Positions 15,833 through 56,503 of a stretch of DNA of 64,000 bases are shown in pieces. Source of the DNA: Caldifarciminota bacterium (GTDB taxonomy: Bacteria; Hydrothermota; Hydrothermia; LBFQ01; DSFT01); assembly GCA_025060695.1 (NCBI GenBank), contig JANXBH010000006.1, forward strand, positions 21,437 through 85,436, in the 5' to 3' direction. Both the position numbers and the translations under genes were made by a program. The notes under the pieces were generated by a model. That model was not told where the DNA came from, searched no databases, and saw only the letters and a program-made list of their open reading frames with translations. The stretch's first letter is position 1; each line of letters starts with the position of its first letter.

Positions 15833-17938
15833 TTACATTAAGTCATATGGATCAACAACAATCTTTAAGCTTCGCACATCTTTTATTTTCTCTAATTCTT
15901 GCTTTATTTGTTTATAATTTTTTGCTCTTAGAATTACCCTCCATCTATAATAGTTTCTTCTCTTTTCAATAGGTGCGCGTGCAGGACCTAAAATCTCTAC
16001 ATTATTATTATCTATTCTTTTTACAACTTCCTCTATTTTTTTTCTTGCAATATTTTCCTTCTTTGAAGTTGCTTCAACAAGAGCCATTTTATAAAATGGA
16101 GGGTATTTTTGATTTTTTCTATTTTCTAGTTCGTACTTTAAAAAACCTTCATAATCTATGTTTTTAACAAATTCAAAAATTTTATTTTCAGGGTCATAAG
16201 TTTGAATATAAACTATTCCTCCTTTTCTTATTCTACCTATAAATTGTATAAGCAATTGAGAATTTCTTTCATAATTTCTAAAATCGGGGATTAGTAAACC
16301 TATATCTGAATTAGGAATTATAGAAAGCTTAACATCTTTTAAATCAAAACCCTTTGAAATTACTTGAGTTCCAATTATTATTTTACTTCCATTTGAGTGT
16401 ATTTTCTTTATGATTTCATCAAGTTGTTTTCTATTTCTTATGGTATCCCTATCTAATCTAATTATTTCGCAATCCTTAAATATTCCATTTAAGCTCTCTT
16501 CTATTCTTTGAACTCCAAAACCCATACTCTTGATGTTATGCGAACCACAATTTTTGCAGTAATTAGGAATGCGCTGTCTCTTACCGCAAATATGACACTC
16601 CATATATCCTTCGTAAGATTTATGTAAAACAAGGTTTACTGAACAAGAGGAACAAGTATAGATATAGCCGCAATCTTTGCACATAAGAATGGGAGAATAC
16701 CCTCTCCTATTTAAAAATATCATAACACTTCTTCCACTTTCCAATTCTTTTCTTATATCAGGTAGTTGTTTTATAGAAATAAGAATATCACTACTTTCCT
16801 TTCTCAAGTCCACAACTTCTACCTTGGGAAACTCGTAGTTCTTTACTCTTTTAGTAAGTCTCAAAAGATGGTATTTTTTTCTTATAACATTGTAATAGCT
16901 TTCAATAGAAGGTGTTGCAGAAGATAAGACTACTGTTGCATTGTAGTATTTTGATATAACAACTGCAACGTCTCTTGCATTATAAAATGGCTTTTTATTT
17001 TCCTCCTTATATGCTCCATCGTGCTCCTCATCCACAAGTATCAAACCCAGATTATCCACAGGTAAAAATAGTGCCGACCTTGAACCTACTATAATCTTTT
17101 TCTTTCCACTTTTTACCTCACTCCAAAGATATGTTCTATGAGAAGGGGAAAGTGAACTATGATATATTGCAACTAAGTCTTTATATCTTTCATAGAAAAT
17201 TCTTGCCAATACTGGGGATAATGATATTTCTGGGACAAGAACTATTATGCCTTTTCCTTTTCTTAAGAACTTTTCAGCAAGCCATATAAATAAACTTGTT
17301 TTTCCACTACCTGTTGGACCAAAGAGTAAATATACTTTACCTTCTTCAATTATATTTAGAATTTCCTCTTGTTCTTTATTTGGTTTTGATGGAAGTTGTA
17401 CATCATATGAAAGAACTATTAAATCTTCTACTTGTTTTGATTGAATTTTTCTTATTTTTGAAACTTTTTTTACTATCCCTTTTTGAATAAGAGATTCAAT
17501 TACTTCAATTTCAGATGACTTAAACCTACTTAGTCTTACATAGTTTTTATCTTTGAGTAAGTTAATCATAGCTTCCTCTTCTTTGGATAAACTTGTGGTA
17601 TATGCAAGATATTTTCTTTTCAGGAGTTTTACATATTGTCTCTCAAATGAATAACTGTTCGGTGGGAAAAATAACCTTAATGCATGATAAAGACTACATA
17701 CATAGTAATTACTTATCCACTTTGCAATTTCTATTGATTTTTCACTAATTGAATAATTTTCTAAGCTTATAATTTCTTGCAGGTTTTCCTCTTCCGCTTC
17801 ATAGTTTTCAATAACGACCCCCCTCGCTAATTTATTTCTAACTCTTATATTTACCAAGTCTCCAATTTTAGCATTTATAGTATTTTTATAAGATAATAAT
17901 GCGTCTATTCCGAATACACAAATTTTTGAGATTAACAT
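15833..17938 (-). CDS. priA: primosomal replication restart helicase
   Basis: PriA reloads the replisome at stalled forks. The 701 residues hold an N-terminal fork-binding region, Walker A GPTGSGKTSLF (about 208-218), the DEEH box in LILVDEEHDGAY and the VLSSATPSIESYY motif. A zinc-binding insert has eight cysteines (CKDCGYIYTCSSC, CHICGKRQRIPNYCKNCG). The helicase C-domain carries GTQVISKGFDLKDV and QFIGRIRKGG. A single-gene unit, divergent from lepB, with ATG four bases after CCTTAAAATTT. Confidence 0.96.
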   Translation of the reverse strand: MLISKICVFGIDALLSYKNTINAKIGDLVNIRVRNKLARGVVIENYEAEEENLQEIISLENYSISEKSIEIAKWISNYYVCSLYHALRLFFPPNSYSFERQYVKLLKRKYLAYTTSLSKEEEAMINLLKDKNYVRLSRFKSSEIEVIESLIQKGIVKKVSKIRKIQSKQVEDLIVLSYDVQLPSKPNKEQEEILNIIEEGKVYLLFGPTGSGKTSLFIWLAEKFLRKGKGIIVLVPEISLSPVLARIFYERYKDLVAIYHSSLSPSHRTYLWSEVKSGKKKIIVGSRSALFLPVDNLGLILVDEEHDGAYKEENKKPFYNARDVAVVISKYYNATVVLSSATPSIESYYNVIRKKYHLLRLTKRVKNYEFPKVEVVDLRKESSDILISIKQLPDIRKELESGRSVMIFLNRRGYSPILMCKDCGYIYTCSSCSVNLVLHKSYEGYMECHICGKRQRIPNYCKNCGSHNIKSMGFGVQRIEESLNGIFKDCEIIRLDRDTIRNRKQLDEIIKKIHSNGSKIIIGTQVISKGFDLKDVKLSIIPNSDIGLLIPDFRNYERNSQLLIQFIGRIRKGGIVYIQTYDPENKIFEFVKNIDYEGFLKYELENRKNQKYPPFYKMALVEATSKKENIARKKIEEVVKRIDNNNVEILGPARAPIEKRRNYYRWRVILRAKNYKQIKQELEKIKDVRSLKIVVDPYDLM

Positions 17939-17942
17939 GAAA

Positions 17943-17953
17943 AAATTTTAAGG
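17943..17953 (-). promoter_or_regulatory. leaderless-type promoter element of priA
   Basis: Minus strand CCTTAAAATTT, four bases before ATG and only five bases from the oppositely oriented lepB element. Confidence 0.65.
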
Positions 17954-17958
17954 TGTTG

Positions 17959-17969
17959 CTTTAAAATTT
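17959..17969 (+). promoter_or_regulatory. leaderless-type promoter element of lepB
   Basis: CTTTAAAATTT, five bases before a CTG codon at 17975 in the lepB frame. The first ordinary start codon is 65 bases further on. Confidence 0.6.
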
Positions 17970-17974
17970 TCTTA

Positions 17975-18649
17975 CTGAAAAAGAAAAAAACATTAAGAGA
18001 GCACCTTGAAGGATGGATATGGACTATAGTAATTGTGCTACTACTAAGAGAATCGGTAATACAGGCATATTTAATACCTTCAAGCTCAATGGAAGATACT
18101 CTACTTGCAGGTGATTTTGTATTAGCTACTAAGTTTGATTTCGGTCTTAGAGTACCATTTACAGATATAAAAATGTTCTCAGGCAAATTACCAAAAAGAG
18201 GTGATATTGTAATATTTTCCTATCCATTAGAAAAAAATAAAGATTTCGTTAAAAGAGTTATAGGTCTTCCAGGGGATACTATCGAAATAAGAAACAAGGT
18301 CTTATACGTTAATCATAAAAAGTTAGTTGAAACATACGCAACATATAAAGATACACATACTTATCCTTCGCTAGATTTAAGTAGTGAAGATTTTATGAAA
18401 CTTTGGCTTGAAGGGAAATTCTCTAATGGACAAAGGTTCGTAAGAGATAATTTTGGACCTATCGTTGTCCCAGATGGAAAGGTATTTGTCTTAGGAGATA
18501 ATAGGGATTATTCCTTTGATTCAAGATTTTGGGGACCATTGGACATTAGATATCTAAAAGGAAAACCAAGGATAATATATTTTTCTTGGGGGAATGGAAT
18601 TAGGTTAGAAAGGTTGTTTAAAATTATAGTAGGTTATAATGGATATTAG
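17975..18649 (+). CDS. lepB: signal peptidase I, probable CTG start
   Basis: Membrane-bound serine-lysine protease that removes Sec signal peptides. It has the catalytic Ser in YLIPSSSMEDTLLAGD, the catalytic Lys in FVKRVIGLPGDTIEI and the box VFVLGDNRDYSFDSRFWGPL. The first canonical start in frame is GTG 18035, but that would cut the membrane anchor in half. Reading from CTG 17975 gives MKKKKTLREHLEGW, then a helix (IWTIVIVLLL), the normal N-terminus. CTG also sits at the usual distance from the promoter element. Length is then 224 residues. First gene of a unit with two small downstream genes. Confidence 0.9.
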   Translation: MKKKKTLREHLEGWIWTIVIVLLLRESVIQAYLIPSSSMEDTLLAGDFVLATKFDFGLRVPFTDIKMFSGKLPKRGDIVIFSYPLEKNKDFVKRVIGLPGDTIEIRNKVLYVNHKKLVETYATYKDTHTYPSLDLSSEDFMKLWLEGKFSNGQRFVRDNFGPIVVPDGKVFVLGDNRDYSFDSRFWGPLDIRYLKGKPRIIYFSWGNGIRLERLFKIIVGYNGY

Positions 18650-20831: not shown

Positions 20832-22176
20832 TTTTCAAGACTACTCCTATTGTTTTCAATATTATTACTATATCAAGCCACAAAGACCAATTTACTACAT
20901 ATATTGTATCAAGCTTTACTCTATCTTCGTAAGTTGTATTACTTCTACCACTTACCTGCCAAAGACCTGTTATACCCGGTTTAACAGCAAGGTAGAATTT
21001 TTTATAATCACCATAATATTTTTCAAGTTCCTCTTTTACTACTGGTCTTGGACCCACAACTGATAAATCACCTTTTAAAACATTTAAAAATTGCGGAAGT
21101 TCGTCCAACGAGAATTTTCTTAAAAACTTACCAATAGGTGTAATTCTTGGGTCATTTTTCAACTTATAGTTCTTTTCCCACTCTTCTCTTAATGCACTAT
21201 TTTGTTCTAATAGTTTCCTAAGAATTTCATCTGCATTTTTATACATAGTTCTAAACTTATATATTTCAATAACTTCTCCATTTTTACCAATCCTTTTGTG
21301 TTTATAAAAAACTGGACCTCTTGAAGTTAATTTTACAAGCATAGCTATTATCAGATACAAAGGACTAAGTAAAACGATAACCAATAGTGAAAAAATAATA
21401 TCGAACATTCTTTTGATTATTAGATTTATTTGAGAGTCAAACTTTGTAGATGTTTCAAAAATTGGCAGATTCTGACTTATAGAAAAATGCAAAATTTGAT
21501 TTGTAAAAGAGAGACCTGAAATATCTGGGACATAGAAAACTTTTTTAAATTTCAAGCATAAACTTGAAATATCATGATAAAACTCATTTAAAAATGGTAT
21601 CCTTGGAATTACTACATTAGATACTTCATCCTTATATTTATCAACCTCAAATAGTTTTATTATTCCAACTGGTTCGTATGCTAAATACCACTCAGATTTA
21701 AAGAAATTATAGATTTTATCACTTTCTGGACCTTCTATTACTAAAATTTTTTCCTTTAAATACCCATTTAAAATCTTCTTAGTAATAAGCCTAAAAATAG
21801 GAACTATGAAAATGGAAAAGAAAATAGAAAGACCAAGAAACAGTCTAGAGAAATCGGGTTTTGCTTTAGTCATAGCATATACACTAAAAATCAATATAAA
21901 TGCATAAAATAGACTTTCAATTATTTCCTTGCTTTCCTCATAAAATAATCTTCTTTGGGTGTATAGTCTTTTCAGAAAGAATATGGTTATAACAAAAAAT
22001 ATTATTATTAACATCTCTCTTAATCTTATTTCAAACTCACTTATACTTATACCAAACTTTAAGAGAAAGGCAATAGAAATAGCAAGAACTATGGCAAGAA
22101 TATCGGAAATCAGCATAGATATGATGTATCTAATAGAAACAGGAGAGAATTTCTTTGAAGATTTTATTTCTACCAT
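20815..22176 (-). CDS. polyprenyl glycosylphosphotransferase (initiating sugar transferase)
   Basis: A 453-residue membrane enzyme that starts polysaccharide assembly by moving a sugar phosphate onto undecaprenyl phosphate. It has four to five N-terminal membrane helices, a soluble middle region and another helix (FDIIFSLLVIVLLSPLYLII). The C-terminal bacterial sugar transferase domain follows: FYKHKRIGKNGEVIEIYKFR, LRKFSLDELPQFLNVLKG, VGPRPVVKEE, KPGITGLWQVSGRS. No other exopolysaccharide genes are nearby, so its product is unclear. It overlaps the lnt stop (TAATG) and is translated from that transcript. Confidence 0.93.
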   Translation of the reverse strand: MVEIKSSKKFSPVSIRYIISMLISDILAIVLAISIAFLLKFGISISEFEIRLREMLIIIFFVITIFFLKRLYTQRRLFYEESKEIIESLFYAFILIFSVYAMTKAKPDFSRLFLGLSIFFSIFIVPIFRLITKKILNGYLKEKILVIEGPESDKIYNFFKSEWYLAYEPVGIIKLFEVDKYKDEVSNVVIPRIPFLNEFYHDISSLCLKFKKVFYVPDISGLSFTNQILHFSISQNLPIFETSTKFDSQINLIIKRMFDIIFSLLVIVLLSPLYLIIAMLVKLTSRGPVFYKHKRIGKNGEVIEIYKFRTMYKNADEILRKLLEQNSALREEWEKNYKLKNDPRITPIGKFLRKFSLDELPQFLNVLKGDLSVVGPRPVVKEELEKYYGDYKKFYLAVKPGITGLWQVSGRSNTTYEDRVKLDTIYVVNWSLWLDIVIILKTIGVVLKNEGAY

Positions 22177-23636
22177 TAACTTTTACGACTACTAACTTTG
22201 AAAATTTTAAAGTGTAAAATCAGAAAAAATATTATAAGTAATAAAATCCAGCTCTCACCGATATAGGTATATATCGTTCTATAGTTGTTTAGTGGGACCT
22301 CCCATATAAAATAACCTAACTCAAAAAGTGGTATTTCCTTTAATGCTTTTCCTTTATCATCTACTACAGCTGAAATTCCTGTTTTCGCACTTCTTATAAT
22401 ATATTTTCCCGTTTCAATTGCTCTAAGTTTTGAAAATAGATAGTGTTCTCTCGGACCTGTTGAAGGACCGAACCATCCATCATTTGTAATGATAAACAAT
22501 ACTTGTGCTCCGTTATTAACTAAACTCTTAGAGATATGAGGAAATATACTCTCATAGCATATCATAATCCCTATTTTATATCCTTTAAAGTCTATAACAT
22601 AAAATCCCTCTCCCTTTTTATAGCTTCCTTGACCTAGGTCCAAATTCCTAATAAAATCTGGTAAAAATTCATAAAAAGGCAGATTTTCTCCAAATGGCAC
22701 TATATGAACTTTATCGTAGTAATCAATAACCTTTCCAGTTGTATCAATTAATAGTGCTGTATTATAGTAGTTTCCATTTTCCTCCCTCGCATTTCCCATG
22801 AGTATTGGTCTTTTTGTAGACCTTAGTATATTCATTACAAGTTCATAATTCCAATAGTTTTGAGGATATATACCGGGTATTGCAGACTCTGAAAGAACAA
22901 GTAAATCATAGTCCTTGTTTCTTATAGAATCAATTAAAATGGAAAAGTTCTTTCTTGTCTCCCTCCATTCATCAGGGTCATATTCGTATCTTGGAAGAAC
23001 ATTTGGTTGAATAACCGCAATTTTCAAAGTCTTACTACTATCAATTTTATAATTTTGCCAGAATATACCAAAGACAATTACAAGTATGATAATTATGGAA
23101 TACGGAGTTAATTTTGTTTTTCCTTGCAATGATAAAAAAAGAGCATAGTTAAAAGTAATAAGTATAAACGATATAAAGTGAGGACCAAAAATTGAGCTAA
23201 TTTGCGCAAAAGTTAAAAAACCAAGAGAAGTATAATAGTAATTTGCCCAAGGTAATGCCAAATCAAATAACCAATATGAAATTATCCATTCGTATATAGT
23301 AAATGAAAGCCCAAAGACTATCGGATGTTTTGAATTTCTAAACAGTAAAAACCAAACAGAAAATAAAACTGTTCTTAACGCAATCATAAAGCTAACACCA
23401 ATTATTAGGAGAATTCCTAAGTGCTTTCCTACTTCAAGGTTATATAGCCAATTTAAATGGATATAGAAAAATGGAAGTGCGTATAAAAAAGAAATAAAAA
23501 AAGCTTTTTTATTTTCTAAGTTTTTTGTAATTACTAAAAGTGGGACAAGAGCAAAGAGACTAAATGGAAATAAGTAAAATGGATATTGTGTAAATATTAA
23601 GGAAATTACTCCAAAGAAAAACAAAGATAATTTCAG
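22176..23636 (-). CDS. lnt: apolipoprotein N-acyltransferase, probable CTG start
   Basis: Adds the third acyl chain to lipoproteins at the periplasmic face of the inner membrane. Several N-terminal helices precede the nitrilase-like domain, with catalytic Glu in LSESAIPG, Lys in YDKVHIVPFGENLP and Cys in GIMICYESIFP, followed by ITNDGWFGPS and RAIETGKYIIRSA. The first canonical start is TTG at 23624. However, the promoter element lies 17 bases from it and only five from a CTG at 23636 in the same frame (MKLSLFFFG). I take CTG as the likelier start, giving 486 residues. First gene of a four-gene unit. Confidence 0.92.
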   Translation of the reverse strand: MKLSLFFFGVISLIFTQYPFYLFPFSLFALVPLLVITKNLENKKAFFISFLYALPFFYIHLNWLYNLEVGKHLGILLIIGVSFMIALRTVLFSVWFLLFRNSKHPIVFGLSFTIYEWIISYWLFDLALPWANYYYTSLGFLTFAQISSIFGPHFISFILITFNYALFLSLQGKTKLTPYSIIIILVIVFGIFWQNYKIDSSKTLKIAVIQPNVLPRYEYDPDEWRETRKNFSILIDSIRNKDYDLLVLSESAIPGIYPQNYWNYELVMNILRSTKRPILMGNAREENGNYYNTALLIDTTGKVIDYYDKVHIVPFGENLPFYEFLPDFIRNLDLGQGSYKKGEGFYVIDFKGYKIGIMICYESIFPHISKSLVNNGAQVLFIITNDGWFGPSTGPREHYLFSKLRAIETGKYIIRSAKTGISAVVDDKGKALKEIPLFELGYFIWEVPLNNYRTIYTYIGESWILLLIIFFLILHFKIFKVSSRKS

Positions 23637-23641
23637 AAGTA

Positions 23642-23652
23642 AAATTTTAAGG
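23642..23652 (-). promoter_or_regulatory. leaderless-type promoter element of lnt
   Basis: Minus strand CCTTAAAATTT, overlapping the stop codon region of the upstream Fe-S oxidoreductase gene and five bases before CTG. Confidence 0.6.
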
Positions 23653-25626
23653 TAATAAGTTTTCTTCTACTAAAACTGCTATATCTTTTACATGGACATT
23701 TTCATTTTTTCTATTTACCCCATCTGAGATCATAATATTACAGAACGGACAGGAGATTGCAATAGTATTTGGATTTTTAGATAAAAGCTCTTCTGTTCTT
23801 TCTATATTTATTTTCTTCCCAAATTTCTCTTCCATCCACATTCTTCCACCACCAGCACCACAGCAAAGTGTATTCAATTTACTCCTTTCTACTTCTAATA
23901 AATTTCCTATTGCATCTAACACTTCTCTTGGTTTTTGATATATACCATTGTGCCTAGAAAGATAGCAAGGATCATGATATACAATTTTTTCAATAGACTT
24001 CTTTACTTTTATTCTACCATCCCTTATTAAGCTGAAGATAACTTCACTATGATGATAAATGTTTAGTTCTATGCCAAAGAAACTATATTCATTTTTAAAC
24101 GTGTTGTAGCAATGCGGGCAAATAGTTATTATATTTTTTATGTTATACTTTTTAAATGTATTTACATTTTCAAATGCTAATGTTTGAAATATTAGTTCAT
24201 TTCCTGTTCTTCTTGCACTATCACCTGTGCACCTTTCTTCATCACCTAAAACTGCAAATCTAATTCCTGCTCTACTTAGTATACTAACTAATGATTTTAT
24301 AGTTTTTTGACTTTTACTATCGTATACACCAGCACACCCCATCCATAGTAAGTAATCAAAACTATAGTCTTTATTCTCTTTTAATATTACTAAATTTAGC
24401 TCTTTTGCAAATTTCAATCTTTCATTTTTAGGAGCGTTCCATGGATTAAATTGATTTTCCATTCCTCTATAACTACTATTTAATTCAGATGGATAAATAC
24501 TTTCATCAACTAATGCCCTTCTATAATTTATAATTAAGTCTAATTGATTTATGCCAACGGGACAGGCATGTACGCATGCCCCACACGTTGTACAAGACCA
24601 AAGTGCATCCTCATTTACAACTACTCCAAGAATTCTATTTTCTCTATTTTCTAAATATTCATATGCGTGCTCCTTTGTATCAAGAACAATTTTCTTTGGG
24701 TCTAATGGCTTTTGTGTAATATATGCAGGACATACACTTGAACACCTTCCACAAATTGTACAAGCATCCACCATTAGTAGTTTATTCCAAGGCAAATCCG
24801 TAATGTATTTATAACCTGTCTTAATTTCTTCTTCACTAAAGTTTTCTTTATTCATAATCTCTATTAAATTTACACTACTATCATGCTTTCCTGTTGGTCT
24901 TTCTTTGTAAAATATAAGATTTAAAGCAGAGGTAAATATGTGAGAAAGTTTAGAATATGGAATATATGCAATAAATAGCATTGTTGTCCAAGCATGAGTA
25001 TTCCATAGAATTCTATGCCAAAATGAAATACTCTCTTTATCTAAGTAAAAAATGTAAGATAGTAGATATCCAAAGAATGAAAATTTTTCATAGTCAGGTC
25101 TGCCGAAATATGAAATTCTTAAAGCTTCTATTAAAAAACCTTGAATTGCTAAAAGAAGTAGTAAAAACAAAATTACTTTATCTTCAAGTATATTTCTTAG
25201 ATAAATAGGAAGAAAAAATACTCTTTTTAAAATTGCAATAGCTATACCAAGAATTAACATAACTCCTGCAAGGTCTGAAATAAACGATAAAAATAAATAA
25301 AAATTTCCATAGATGAACTTTATACCAAAGTCCATTTGAATTGCAACTAATGTAGTAGTGATAGTTAAAATTATCATTGACCAAAATATAGGAACATGCG
25401 AAAATAGTCCAAACGGTCTATCTATAACCTTTCTTTGAAAAATAGCATTTACTAAATAAGAAATAGAATTTACTTTTAGTTTTAGCTTCTTTCCCAAGGA
25501 CCACATCTTAAAATGTCTATAAAAACCATATAGAAAAAAGAATAATGAAATTAGAAATAAGGCATACATAATAAAAAAGTCTACTTTTCCTACATTCCAA
25601 CCTAAAGGTCTTGCAATTTCTTCCAT
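23647..25626 (-). CDS. NarI/HdrD-like Fe-S oxidoreductase (membrane domain plus CCG domains)
   Basis: A 659-residue redox protein. The first about 240 residues hold five or more membrane helices of the nitrate-reductase-gamma type. Two 4Fe-4S motifs follow (CTICGRCSSVCP and CTTCGACVHACP), then two CCG domains as in HdrB/HdrD and GlpC (ICPHCYNTF, YHDPCYLSRHN, TLCCGAGGGRMW). Such fusions are thought to pass electrons between the quinone pool and cytoplasmic carriers. The start is ATG 25626 (MEEIARPLGW), five bases after ATTAAAATTT, rather than an in-frame TTG seven codons earlier. Single-gene unit. Confidence 0.88.
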   Translation of the reverse strand: MEEIARPLGWNVGKVDFFIMYALFLISLFFFLYGFYRHFKMWSLGKKLKLKVNSISYLVNAIFQRKVIDRPFGLFSHVPIFWSMIILTITTTLVAIQMDFGIKFIYGNFYLFLSFISDLAGVMLILGIAIAILKRVFFLPIYLRNILEDKVILFLLLLLAIQGFLIEALRISYFGRPDYEKFSFFGYLLSYIFYLDKESISFWHRILWNTHAWTTMLFIAYIPYSKLSHIFTSALNLIFYKERPTGKHDSSVNLIEIMNKENFSEEEIKTGYKYITDLPWNKLLMVDACTICGRCSSVCPAYITQKPLDPKKIVLDTKEHAYEYLENRENRILGVVVNEDALWSCTTCGACVHACPVGINQLDLIINYRRALVDESIYPSELNSSYRGMENQFNPWNAPKNERLKFAKELNLVILKENKDYSFDYLLWMGCAGVYDSKSQKTIKSLVSILSRAGIRFAVLGDEERCTGDSARRTGNELIFQTLAFENVNTFKKYNIKNIITICPHCYNTFKNEYSFFGIELNIYHHSEVIFSLIRDGRIKVKKSIEKIVYHDPCYLSRHNGIYQKPREVLDAIGNLLEVERSKLNTLCCGAGGGRMWMEEKFGKKINIERTEELLSKNPNTIAISCPFCNIMISDGVNRKNENVHVKDIAVLVEENLLP

Positions 25627-40586: not shown

Positions 40587-41006
40587 TTATTTTACTATTC
40601 TCTTTGACCTTGGTATTTGATTTTTTAATTTTTCTCCATCATATATTGCAACTCCAAGGATATCTTTATTGCATTTTACTATAACTTGACCTTTTTCTAA
40701 ATTTTCGTCCATATAATTTATATCACTTCCACTAATAAATTGCATAGCTAAATTTTCATCTTTTAAATTTACTACATTTTTCTTTGCTAAATGTCCTATA
40801 ATTTGAGCACCAGCTGTAGTAAGCTTATATCCATTTTTAAATACCCTAATTAACCTAATTCCAACTCTATTAAATTTTATATTTTCCCTTATTTTCAAAG
40901 CTTGCTTACTTGAAATCCAGATATCACCTCTATCAATTAAAACATGCTCACTTGGCAAATTTCCTATACCAAATCTCTCTAATAAAAAATTAAAAAACTC
41001 TTTCAT
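40587..41006 (-). CDS. PUA-like RNA-binding protein
   Basis: A 139-residue protein. The last 80 residues read as a PUA-type RNA-binding fold, like the tail of NOL1/NOP2/RsmF rRNA methyltransferases: GYKLTTAGAQIIGHL, then LEKGQVIVKCNKDILGVAIYD and IPRSKRIVK. The methyltransferase domain itself is missing, so this is a stand-alone module. It starts on the stop codon of the inositol-phosphatase gene (ATGA) and forms a two-gene unit with it. Exact target unknown. Confidence 0.72.
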   Translation of the reverse strand: MKEFFNFLLERFGIGNLPSEHVLIDRGDIWISSKQALKIRENIKFNRVGIRLIRVFKNGYKLTTAGAQIIGHLAKKNVVNLKDENLAMQFISGSDINYMDENLEKGQVIVKCNKDILGVAIYDGEKLKNQIPRSKRIVK

Positions 41007-41773
41007 TTCTTAATTAGTTCTAACATTTCTCTATGAAACTCTTCATTGCATCCACAAAGCAAATTTCCAGTCTCTAAATAATTATCCTTTCCATCAAAGT
41101 CGGTTATTATTCCACCTGCTTCTTTTAATATAATTATACCAGCATAAATATCCCACTTATTTAGTTTATACTCCCAAAATCCATCAAATATGCCTTCTGC
41201 AGTCATACACAGGTCCAGTGCTGCAGAGCCTAGTCTTCTAATAGCACTTGAATACTTACTAAAAATCCTAAATGTTCTAATATATTCTTCTAAAATATCA
41301 AGCTCGGTATGTGGAAATCCCGTTGCAAGAAAAGAGCCTTTTACTGTTGTTTTTTTTGAAGTAAAGATTTTGGAATTATTCTTATATGCACCATTACCCT
41401 TTGTAGCATAATATAAATTGTCTTTCATTGGTTCATATACTACTCCCAATACTATCTCGTTTCTATAAGACAAAGCAATAGATACACAAAATACATCCAA
41501 ACCTCTTAGGAAATTTTTTGTTCCATCAAGTGGGTCGATAAACCAGACATAATCACTATCTCCTAAGGTGCCACTTTCTTCTGCCAATATTTTGTGGTCC
41601 TTGAAATGTCTTAAAATGTATTCTTTTATGACATTTTCACTTTCAATATCTGCCCTACTAACATAATCATTTCTATTCTTTTCAGAAAACTCTATGTTTT
41701 TTCTAAAGTAATATTTTAGTATATTTCCTCCTATGTATGACGCTTGTATGGCAACTTTTAAGAATTTATTTAT
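41003..41773 (-). CDS. inositol-1-monophosphatase family phosphatase, ATA start
   Basis: A 256-residue sugar-phosphate phosphatase of the IMPase/SuhB family. Metal-site motifs are AEESGT (about 63-68, catalytic Glu), WFIDPLDGTKNF (about 76-87) and KLNKWDIYAGIIILKEAGG. The helix FLKVAIQASYIGGNILKYYF and NDYVSRADIESE at the N-terminus are family-typical but lie before any ATG, GTG or TTG. Between an in-frame stop at 41786-41788 and this conserved part the only near-cognate codon is ATA at 41773. It lies six bases after CTTTAAAATTT and gives MNKFLKVA. Confidence 0.9.
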   Translation of the reverse strand: MNKFLKVAIQASYIGGNILKYYFRKNIEFSEKNRNDYVSRADIESENVIKEYILRHFKDHKILAEESGTLGDSDYVWFIDPLDGTKNFLRGLDVFCVSIALSYRNEIVLGVVYEPMKDNLYYATKGNGAYKNNSKIFTSKKTTVKGSFLATGFPHTELDILEEYIRTFRIFSKYSSAIRRLGSAALDLCMTAEGIFDGFWEYKLNKWDIYAGIIILKEAGGIITDFDGKDNYLETGNLLCGCNEEFHREMLELIKK

Positions 41774-41779
41774 AGTGCA

Positions 41780-41790
41780 AAATTTTAAAG
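41780..41790 (-). promoter_or_regulatory. leaderless-type promoter element of the IMPase gene (ATA start)
   Basis: Minus strand CTTTAAAATTT, six bases before ATA 41773. It shares a 42-base spacer with the E1beta element. Confidence 0.6.
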
Positions 41791-41800
41791 TTATTCTTAG

Positions 41801-41811
41801 CCTTAAAATTT
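41801..41811 (+). promoter_or_regulatory. leaderless-type promoter element of the E1beta gene
   Basis: CCTTAAAATTT, four bases before ATG 41816. Confidence 0.65.
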
Positions 41812-41815
41812 CTAC

Positions 41816-42835
41816 ATGGTTTTTAAATTAGAAGAAGGGGAAAAAGCAAAAAGTGCAAAGGCAATAACTATAGTTAAAGCTATTAGGGAAGCACTTGCTG
41901 AAGAAATGAGAAGAGATAGTAGAGTTGTAATTCTTGGAGAGGACGTAGGAAAGAGAGGAGGGGTATTTTTAGCAACAGAGGGACTTATAGATGAATTTGG
42001 TGAGGAAAGGGTAATAGATACACCATTAACTGAACTTGGAATAATTGGTGTTGCTGTGGGTATGGCTCTATATGGTCTTAGACCTGTTGCAGAAATTCAG
42101 TTTATAGACTTTGTATATCCGGGTTTTGATCAAATCGTAAATGAAGCGGCAAAATTTAGATATAGAAGTGGTGGACAATATTCAGTTCCGTTAGTAATTA
42201 GATCTCCATATGGTGGAGGAATTGGTGGAGGTTTATATCATTCTCAAAGTCCTGAAAGTTATTTTACTCATACACCAGGTTTAAAAGTAATAATTCCATC
42301 AACACCTACAGATGCGAAAGGTCTTTTAAAGTCAGCAATTAGAGACGAGGACCCAGTAATCTTCTTAGAACCTAAAAAAATATACATGTCAATAAAAGAA
42401 GAAGTTCCTGATGACATAGATTTTACTATTGAAATTGGAAAGGCAAAAAAAATAAAGGAAGGAAAGGACGTTACACTAATTAGCTATGGATATATGGTCC
42501 ATGTATGTATGAAAGCGGTTGAAATAGCTCAAAAAGAAGGTATTTCAGTTGAACTTATAGATTTAAGAACATTATTACCATTTGATAAGGACGCCATATT
42601 AGAGAGTGTTGCTAAAACGGGAAGATTAGTAATTGTAAATGAAGCACCGAAGATTGGCTCATTTGCATCTGAAATAAGTGCATTTGTATCAGAAAGAGCT
42701 ATTGAATATCTATTAGCACCAATTAAAAGAATAACAGGTTTTGATACTCCATTTCCTTATGCCCAGCAAAAATACTATATGCCAAATGAGTATAGAATTT
42801 ATAAAGCAATAAAAGAAGTAATGGAATGGAATTAA
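41816..42835 (+). CDS. 2-oxoacid dehydrogenase E1 component, beta subunit
   Basis: A 339-residue subunit of the thiamine-diphosphate dehydrogenase that decarboxylates pyruvate or a branched-chain 2-oxoacid. It has VVILGEDVGKRGGVF, DTPLTELGIIGVAVGMAL, EIQFIDFVYPGFDQIVNEAAK and the C-terminal SLISYGYMVHVC/IDLRTLLPFD pattern. No E1 alpha gene is present here; the E2 gene lies at 47641, separated by six genes. Co-transcribed with mtaB, which overlaps its end by ten bases. Confidence 0.94.
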   Translation: MVFKLEEGEKAKSAKAITIVKAIREALAEEMRRDSRVVILGEDVGKRGGVFLATEGLIDEFGEERVIDTPLTELGIIGVAVGMALYGLRPVAEIQFIDFVYPGFDQIVNEAAKFRYRSGGQYSVPLVIRSPYGGGIGGGLYHSQSPESYFTHTPGLKVIIPSTPTDAKGLLKSAIRDEDPVIFLEPKKIYMSIKEEVPDDIDFTIEIGKAKKIKEGKDVTLISYGYMVHVCMKAVEIAQKEGISVELIDLRTLLPFDKDAILESVAKTGRLVIVNEAPKIGSFASEISAFVSERAIEYLLAPIKRITGFDTPFPYAQQKYYMPNEYRIYKAIKEVMEWN

Positions 42836-45706: not shown

Positions 45707-45911
45707 CATAGTTTATACTAAGAAAATAAAGGCAGGTAGAAGAACTTATTTCTTTGATATAAAAGTAGACGGTAAAGGTCAAAACTATATTTCTATATCT
45801 GAATCAAGAAAGACTGAAAATGGATTTAAAAAGCAGATGATAGTAATATATCCTGAAGATATTGAAAAATTCTTCTTAACATTTAAGGAGGTAAAAGATA
45901 GCCTCAAGTAA
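45678..45911 (+). CDS. PUR-domain nucleic-acid-binding protein (DUF3276)
   Basis: A 77-residue protein of the bacterial PUR-alpha-like group: YTKKIKAGRRTYFFDIKVDG, NYISISESRKTENGFKKQM, IYPEDIEKFFLTF. Relatives in Borrelia and Bacteroidetes bind single-stranded DNA and RNA. It overlaps recA by 29 bases, with a GGGGGAG site before its ATG. Its last codons contain the AAGGAGGT Shine-Dalgarno and the ATA start of the glycosyltransferase gene. Confidence 0.88.
   Translation: MEQHLNRQNNIVYTKKIKAGRRTYFFDIKVDGKGQNYISISESRKTENGFKKQMIVIYPEDIEKFFLTFKEVKDSLK
45885..45892 (+). promoter_or_regulatory. perfect Shine-Dalgarno for an ATA start
   Basis: AAGGAGGT within the end of the PUR gene. Six bases separate its GGAGG core from the ATA at 45898. 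Confidence 0.8.
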
Positions 45912-46635
45912 GCTAAAATTATCTATAGTTATTCCTGTTTATAACGAAAAAGACTATATTGAAAAAGTTATAAGAATGGTGAAAGATGTAAATCTTGGTT
46001 ATGATTTGGATAGAGAAATAATAGTAGTAGATGATGGAAGTAATGATGGGACAAGAGAAATATTAAAGCAATTAGAAAATAATGATGAATTTAAAAATGT
46101 TTTAAAAGTTATATATCATGAAAAGAATCAAGGAAAAGGTGGAGCATTGAATACAGGATTTAACTATGTTAGTGGAGATATAGTAGTAATTCAAGATGCA
46201 GACTTGGAGTATGACCCGAACGACTGGAGGGAAATGTTAAGACTTATAATTGAAAAAAATGCAGATGTAGTATATGGTTCAAGATTTTACGGTGCAAGCC
46301 ATAGGGTTCTATACTTTTATCACTTCATGGGAAATAAAGTAATTACTTACTTAATAAATTTACTTTTCAACATGACATTTTCTGACATTGAAGTATGCTA
46401 TAAGATGCTTAAAAAAGAAATTCTTGATGAAATTAGACCATTTAAAAGCAAAGACTTTGGTTTTGAAGTGGAAATTACTGCGAAGATTTCAAAATTGTCA
46501 AGCAAAAAGGGTATTAGAGTGTATGAAACTCAAATAAATTATTACGGAAGGACATATAATGAGGGGAAAAAAATTACTTGGAAAGATGGTATAAAAGCTC
46601 TTTGGTATATTATTAAGTTTAGATTTTCAAATTAA
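45898..46635 (+). CDS. family 2 glycosyltransferase, ATA start
   Basis: A 245-residue GT-A enzyme of the dolichol-phosphate-mannose-synthase-like group, which moves a sugar from a nucleotide donor to a lipid carrier. LSIVIPVYNEKDYIEKVI (about 8-25) is the start of the nucleotide-binding fold, followed by EIIVVDDGSNDGTREIL, NQGKGGALNTGF, VVIQDADLEYDP (DxD) and FGFEVEITAK. No ATG, GTG or TTG precedes the conserved start; an in-frame TAA lies at 45892-45894. ATA 45898, six bases after AAGGAGGT, is the only sensible start (MASSKLKLS). It overlaps the PUR gene by 14 bases. Confidence 0.92.
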   Translation: MASSKLKLSIVIPVYNEKDYIEKVIRMVKDVNLGYDLDREIIVVDDGSNDGTREILKQLENNDEFKNVLKVIYHEKNQGKGGALNTGFNYVSGDIVVIQDADLEYDPNDWREMLRLIIEKNADVVYGSRFYGASHRVLYFYHFMGNKVITYLINLLFNMTFSDIEVCYKMLKKEILDEIRPFKSKDFGFEVEITAKISKLSSKKGIRVYETQINYYGRTYNEGKKITWKDGIKALWYIIKFRFSN

Positions 46636-55413: not shown

Positions 55414-56503
55414 ATGACAGGAGAAAGCTATAGAAAAGAGATAGTTGATTACTTGAGTGAGTTGTATAATAGATATGCCTATGCTTTTAGCCCTGCTAGT
55501 AGAGACCCTGAAGTCAAATATCCCTATGATGATATAATAAGCTACAAATACGGAAACAATTTTGATGAATTCTTAGCAAAAAGAGGTATAACAGATAAGT
55601 ATGAAATTGCTGACTTCATTCTTGCTTTTGAGAGTAATATTGAGAAAAAGAAATATCGTGTAGAGCCTTTACTATCTGCATTTCATCGTGCAATGGGTTA
55701 TTTCATATCAAAAAGCTCAGTATATAAACTAAAGAATAATCCAATAGACATTTTCTATTAAGATACAGACAGTCAGTATTACAATGAGTTTAAGAGATTC
55801 ATACCAATGTTATATTCACTATCACTATTTCCTAATAGAGTTGGAAATGAGGACCGTGTTGCTTGTACTGTAGTCTTTTTTGCAAAGAGAGATAAAAAAG
55901 ACATTAGACACAATAGCTTCATATTTATATGATGCAATAAAGATAGTATACGAAAGATTCAAAAAAGAAAAAAAAGTGGGTTCAATCTTCTCATTGATTA
56001 CTATGATTATATGTTAAACGGTTTAGTTGACGTAATGCATGATATATATCAAAAATACACAGGTATAAAAGACAATTTACCATGTAAATCATGAATATCT
56101 TCCTATAAATGATTATTTCAGAGTATTAAGTGAGCTTAACAATGAAGTTGGTAATAATGAAGTTTATGGAATGATAGCAAGAAGTTTTGTATTATCATTA
56201 TTCTTTATAAGTCCTTTTGTAAAACTTTTAGGTTTTGACCTTATGAATATAATTGACGATGATGAACACTTGAGAAAAGGTATGAAAAACCTAAAGGATA
56301 ATTATGGCATTGAGTTAGGTGAAAGAAGATTTTTAGTTAAAAATCAAAGAATAATTAACGATGTATTAGAGAGTGTTGATATTGACTTCTATGTAGTTGA
56401 GGACCCAGCTGAAATAAACACACTAATGTATAATGGTATGAGTAAGGAAAGATTTGAAAAACTTGCAAAAGTATTCTATGACCTTGAGGATTTAGTATTT
56501 TAG
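55414..56503 (+). pseudogene. broken gene, unknown family, first of the island
   Basis: One ancestral reading of about 360 codons, now broken. The first 115 codons (MTGESYRKEIVDYLSELYNR onward) end in TAA at 55759. The same frame goes on as DTDSQYYNEFKRFIPMLYSLS to a TGA near 55930. A shifted frame reads SYLYDAIKIVYERFKKEKKVG; another shift gives DYYDYMLNGLVDVMHDIYQK; a third gives NHEYLPINDYFRVLSELNNE, continuing into a 110-codon end that stops at 56503. The conserved-looking peptides across the breaks show a recent inactivation by one stop and several indels. The product is not recognised; it is soluble and tyrosine-rich. Confidence 0.75.

Follow-up and report, generated by a model that had tools for sequence, protein, structure and literature searches.

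A probable leaderless AUA start for an inositol monophosphatase-like gene in a bacterial genus with further apparent near-cognate starts and tRNA-abutting genes

The window, the 64,000-nucleotide stretch of DNA that was analysed, carries on its minus strand a gene that PF00459 and phmmer searches assign to the inositol monophosphatase/SuhB-like family, and whose proposed coding sequence (41003..41773, 256 codons) runs from an ATA codon to the stop codon TGA at 41005-41003. Direct reading of the minus strand reveals that the frame is open from the proposed start (ATA 41773-41771; 41771..41773) to this stop, and that ATG, GTG and TTG are absent from it before TTG 41587 (41585..41587), which lies 62 codons past the ATA and whose use would mean the loss of 62 family codons. 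These codons contain NDYVSRADIESE and encode the family N-terminus, as the initial annotation had described, and they align with the N-termini of solved IMPase/SuhB structures from about residue 1-5. The match to PF00459 (E 3.7e-68) covers profile positions 4-268 of 271, and phmmer placed query residue 2 on residue 5 of 2pcr (E 3.1e-56) and query residue 4 on chain residue 4 of SuhB 2qfl. Around the proposed start the codons read ACT TTA AAA TTT TGC ACT, then ATA 41773, then AAT AAA TTC TTA AAA GTT GCC ATA CAA GCG.

Upstream of the ATA, the -10-like element TTTAAAAT occupies 41789-41782 (41782..41789, minus strand), 8 nt before the start codon, and the six-base distance from CTTTAAAATTT to ATA 41773 given earlier was read as such. 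This is the layout of a leaderless gene, with a -10-like element about 12 bp upstream and no room for a leader; between the element and the family N-terminus the ATA is the sole start-like codon, and no Shine-Dalgarno pairing, whether plain or of the extended type known from S. aureus, was found upstream of ATA 41773. The in-frame stop previously placed at 41786-41788 had to be corrected: the coding strand reads TTA there, with TAA on the other strand only. The true in-frame stop, read directly, is the TAA at 41828-41830 (41828..41830, minus strand), so that two more near-cognates, ATT 41809 and ATA 41794, fall in the open frame, both of them upstream of the -10-like element. On the plus strand, CTTAAAAT (41802..41809) is the -10-like element of a divergent pyruvate dehydrogenase E1-beta-like gene, whose ATG 41816 lies 6 nt behind it. 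The divergent starts ATA 41773 and ATG 41816 are only 42 bp apart, which leaves almost no leader room for either gene.

The phosphatase of the sister genome G001, an independent assembly from the same genus (73% identity), is also without any canonical start. Its 5' region reads TAG, GGG GCG CTT GCC CCT TTA AAA TTT TCT ATA TAC ACT AAA TTC. The TAG stop lies 8-9 codons upstream of the ATA, which is the sole near-cognate from that stop up to the family sequence; compared with the ATA of the window it comes one codon earlier, and it follows the same TTTAAAAT by 5 nt, a distance at the limit of the spacing range. Over codons 2-62, the two genomes differ at codon positions 1/2/3 by 16/8/34, 24 of the codon changes being synonymous and 18 non-synonymous, and the remainder of the gene has a like pattern (16/18/58; 39 synonymous, 32 non-synonymous). 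Because this pattern is that of coding DNA and matches the rest of the gene, it indicates that codons 2-62, upstream of the TTG, are translated and under purifying selection. Moreover, G002 and G003, which belong to the same family and another genus, have an ATG precisely where the window has ATA 41773, and in most class relatives the phosphatase starts within a few codons of this position. An ATG-started orthologue with a different N-terminus, named in the initial annotation as an observation that would speak against the ATA, was not found among these relatives, since the ATG of G002 and G003 sits exactly at the ATA position. The phosphatase is a conserved gene whose N-terminus lies ahead of every ATG, GTG and TTG and whose orthologues start alike. 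A contig scan of other genomes returned distant relatives only, and no relative of this stretch was found among viral contigs.

The spacing between element and start recurs across the genome under study (G000). In a 464 kb sample, comprising the window and 400 kb of other stretches, 419 ORFs were called as genes, 302 of them ATG-first. In 65 of these 302, exact TTTAAAAT precedes the first ATG by 6-10 nt, a geometry that the ATA shares, as had been claimed. With variants of TTTAAAAT included, the spacing is shared by the canonical codons of 121 genes (93 ATG, 23 TTG and 5 GTG). When gene calls were not used, ATG was observed 6-10 nt behind the motif 75 times in G000 and 104 times in G001, against 7.8 expected in each, while the same count in unrelated loci gave none. 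A bulk test in G000 showed no excess of ATA behind TTTAAAAT (12 observed, 23 expected), so the element alone cannot mark ATA starts, which are few and each rest on their own comparison.

Further near-cognate starts, which the initial annotation had proposed to seek genome-wide, were looked for in the 464 kb sample by scanning for coding signal ahead of each first canonical codon, by a motif scan and by comparison with relatives. The window itself holds a second ATA with a different mode of initiation, as had been noted: a GT2 glycosyltransferase gene (45898..46635, plus strand) has an open frame from ATA 45898-45900, its first canonical start lies 27 codons in, and the Shine-Dalgarno sequence AAGGAGGT (45885..45892, plus strand) precedes the ATA. 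The arrangement, AAGGAGGTAAAAG-ATA here and GGAGGTGAAA-ATA at the same codon in G001 (87% identity), is kept codon for codon together with its Shine-Dalgarno sequence, which in the window is of the extended, S. aureus type, and it implies that a 5'-terminal position would not be the sole context for a near-cognate start. Behind TTTAAAAT, polA has CTG at 7 nt, with the G001 start an ATG two codons later, and a coaX-like gene has ATA at 8 nt, with an ATG one codon earlier in G001. A lepB-like signal-peptidase gene (17975..18649, plus strand, in the stretch 17936-18649) has an apparently leaderless CTG 7 nt behind TTTAAAAT at 17960-17967, and in G001 the corresponding codon is TTG, likewise preceded by a TTTAAAAT-like element. 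Directly behind tRNA genes, an rdgB-like gene has CTG after tRNA-Tyr in both G000 and G001, with ATG at that codon in G002 and G003, and a GT2-like gene has ATA after tRNA-Val in both genus members. Candidate CTG starts were also identified after tRNA-Leu, in a HAD-like gene, and after tRNA-His, in a membrane-protein gene, the N-terminal parts of both being unconfirmed in relatives. A probable leaderless CTG start of an Lnt-like membrane protein (22176..23636, minus strand, in the stretch 22176-23666; CTTAAAAT + 7 nt) is a weaker case because a TTG stands 4 codons later as an alternative. Taken together, these genes suggest that at least two near-cognates, ATA and CTG, are in use.

Several other loci were considered in this search. 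A BamA-like gene (G000 C11:38364-40052, minus strand) has a possible CTG start after GGGAG, unconfirmed in relatives. An ATA start of the PDH E1-alpha-like gene (C33:15592) was rejected on account of a G001 stop inside that stretch and overlap by the upstream gene. This gene (G000 C33:15592-16566, L109/L310; L311 in G001) overlaps the end of its upstream neighbour behind AGGAG(A/G), and in both species no ATG, GTG, TTG, CTG, ATA or ATT stands at the beginning of its family N-terminus, the only in-frame codons at Shine-Dalgarno spacing being AAG, TTC and AAT. The apparently missing start of prfB at C77 is accounted for by the usual arrangement of the RF2 frameshift (CTTTGA). At C11:104964, a near-cognate start was set aside in favour of a probable frameshift at a T8 run: this efflux-adaptor-like gene (G000 C11:104964-105779, minus strand, L107) is split at eight T residues with its N-terminal part in another frame, which would reflect either transcriptional slippage or an indel. 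At window position 56069, the candidate was dismissed as decayed reading frames; the surrounding region (55700-56503, plus strand) contains coding-like pieces in different frames, without a start codon, and resembles a decayed gene.

The starts behind tRNA genes belong to a broader pattern, which was quantified by counting ORFs, 50 aa or longer, whose start codon lies no more than about 6 nt from a tRNA 3' end. In G000, 21 of 38 tRNA genes have such a start on the same strand (9 ATG, 8 TTG, 3 CTG and 1 ATA), and no opposite-strand starts were found at tRNA 5' ends. The corresponding counts elsewhere were 10/18 in G001, 4/30 in G002, 12/28 in G005 and 1/36 in the class relative G018, the excess in G005 being modest because its random rate is higher (0.23). 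G018 was taken as the control because a random-position control is inflated by in-frame internal starts, and against it the genus stands out in both members (Fisher 3e-7 for G000, 2e-5 for G001), gene starts at tRNA 3' ends being far commoner there than in this relative. The arrangement is spread over many contigs of G000 and G001 (for example, loci L108, L117, L196 and L302), and several tRNA-gene pairs are kept between the two genomes. Where a gene starts at the tRNA end, neither a Shine-Dalgarno sequence nor a -10 element can fit in between; most simply, tRNA 3' processing would make a near-leaderless mRNA. In nearly all tRNAs, CCA directly after the acceptor stem is not genomically encoded, and the RNase Z model gave a sub-cut-off match only.

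Features of the translation machinery were also inspected. Three tRNAs with a CAU anticodon are present, one of which has the features of an initiator, its first acceptor pair being mismatched and its anticodon stem GGG/CCC. Loss of IF3 as a cause of near-cognate starts was rejected, IF3 being present and full length. The IF3 gene (infC, G000 C55, L071) encodes Asn at a position that we take to be about E. coli Arg147, in place of the Arg of the solved IF3 chains aligned with it; a link to relaxed start-codon choice is possible and is offered as a lead only.

Several alternatives to initiation at ATA 41773 on a leaderless message were weighed. Chance or sequencing error is an unlikely source of the ATA. 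Leaderless ATG genes are common here and the assembly is fragmented (77 contigs), so an ordinary leaderless ATG gene with a misread first codon is conceivable, yet the separately assembled sister genome is also devoid of a canonical start at the phosphatase, and ATA and CTG starts recur with conservation at several genes, which makes this account very unlikely. A longer mRNA might instead be translated from ATT 41809 or ATA 41794, or initiation might fall inside the gene at a near-cognate, for instance the ATA that follows GGAGGA at about codon 13; the frame is open to 41828, and an AGGAGG does precede an in-frame ATA inside the gene. Such a start elsewhere is nonetheless improbable: the upstream codons precede the -10-like element and are without homology, relatives have their ATG at 41773, and the internal GGAGGA codes for a conserved Gly-Gly that G001 replaces by Ala-Gly (GCGGGT).

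That translation begins at TTG 41587, with the upstream codons unused, is the gene caller's first choice and is highly improbable: it would strip the family fold of its N-terminal part and of the ADIE motif, relatives encode the full N-terminus, and the 62 codons carry the substitution pattern of a coding sequence (24 synonymous against 18 non-synonymous changes; 16/8/34). Finally, AUA might have been reassigned to Met in this lineage, making the ATA a plain Met codon, and mitochondria offer a precedent in that AUA-Met, leaderless mRNAs and tRNA punctuation occur together there. Against this, G000 ATA codons aligned to G001 fall on Ile in 72% of cases, Leu in 11%, Val in 9% and Met in 1.8%, the same as ATT, so the code is unchanged, and the third CAU tRNA is present, as expected for tRNA-Ile2; with internal AUA not aligning with Met, reassignment has next to no probability.

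Overall, the most probable explanation (about 0.82, judged from sequence comparison) is that the phosphatase is translated from a leaderless mRNA starting at AUA, a codon that does not ordinarily signal a start, and is one of a small set of near-cognate-start genes in the genus. Transcription would proceed from TTTAAAAT at 41789-41782, with the transcript 5' end at ATA 41773 or no more than about 1-2 nt from it, giving a leaderless message with AUA as its 5'-terminal codon. The initiator fMet-tRNA (anticodon CAU) would be accepted at AUA despite the third-position mismatch, the protein would begin fMet-Asn-Lys-Phe, the normal family N-terminus, and AUA would still be read as Ile inside genes. 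Genes with AUA or CUG starts would make up roughly 2% of the sample genes, most with the start at or near a presumed RNA 5' end made by a leaderless promoter or by tRNA 3' processing and at least one led by a Shine-Dalgarno sequence, and the 5'-terminal position may be what permits AUA and CUG in the former. The initial annotation was partly confirmed and largely holds, and its interpretation, a leaderless ATA start with initiation deduced from the DNA, is supported.

A broader proposition, to which we give even odds, is that this genus has ribosomes that accept AUA, CUG and UUG at 5'-terminal starts and many leaderless messages cut by tRNA processing as in mitochondria, with AUA still Ile in elongation. 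Gene callers usually take ATG, GTG and TTG only, so such genes would be truncated or lost, the phosphatase losing 62 residues. Text searches of an open-access collection of papers returned no bacterial example of a leaderless AUA or CUG start, nor of protein genes punctuated by tRNAs, a coverage that makes this weak evidence of novelty. Leaderless initiation is thought to need a strong start codon, with ATG and GTG only in mycobacteria (PMC4633059); if the lineage uses AUA and CUG on leaderless mRNA, the start-codon requirement of leaderless (70S) initiation becomes testable.

Among known systems, the phosphatase shares with the SuhB/inositol monophosphatase family (PF00459) a full-length match and the motifs ADIE, AEES and IDPLDGT, and is unusual in its start codon only. 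AUA starts are known from S. aureus infC, ccpN and citZ, where Shine-Dalgarno pairing is stressed, and AUU is the natural start of Staphylococcus cvfC1 (PMC13009471). As here, a near-cognate mismatched to CAU is in those cases the natural start of a conserved gene; however, they are leadered, dependent on an (extended) Shine-Dalgarno sequence and often regulatory, whereas the AUA described here belongs to a housekeeping enzyme and stands behind a -10-like element, apparently without a leader. With its Shine-Dalgarno-led ATA, the GT2 gene at 45898 falls among the known cases (PMC13009471). In Actinobacteria and Deinococcus-Thermus, leaderless genes occur widely (PMC3160421), and their layout, in which many genes have a -10-like box some 12 bp ahead of the start codon and no 5' UTR, resembles that seen here (PMC3160421, PMC4633059). 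While mycobacterial leaderless mRNAs are started by ATG and GTG only (PMC4633059), TTG is frequent here and AUA and CUG occur, with ATA in the phosphatase and CTG in polA and lepB.

The tRNA-abutting genes suggest that the tRNA-punctuation layout of mitochondria can arise in a bacterium with an unchanged genetic code. As in animal mitochondria, starts including AUA lie directly behind tRNA 3' ends, where cleavage would leave a leaderless mRNA. In contrast to them, this is a free-standing bacterial genome in which AUA is Ile inside genes, about half rather than all of the sampled tRNA genes are so arranged, and most genes use promoters.
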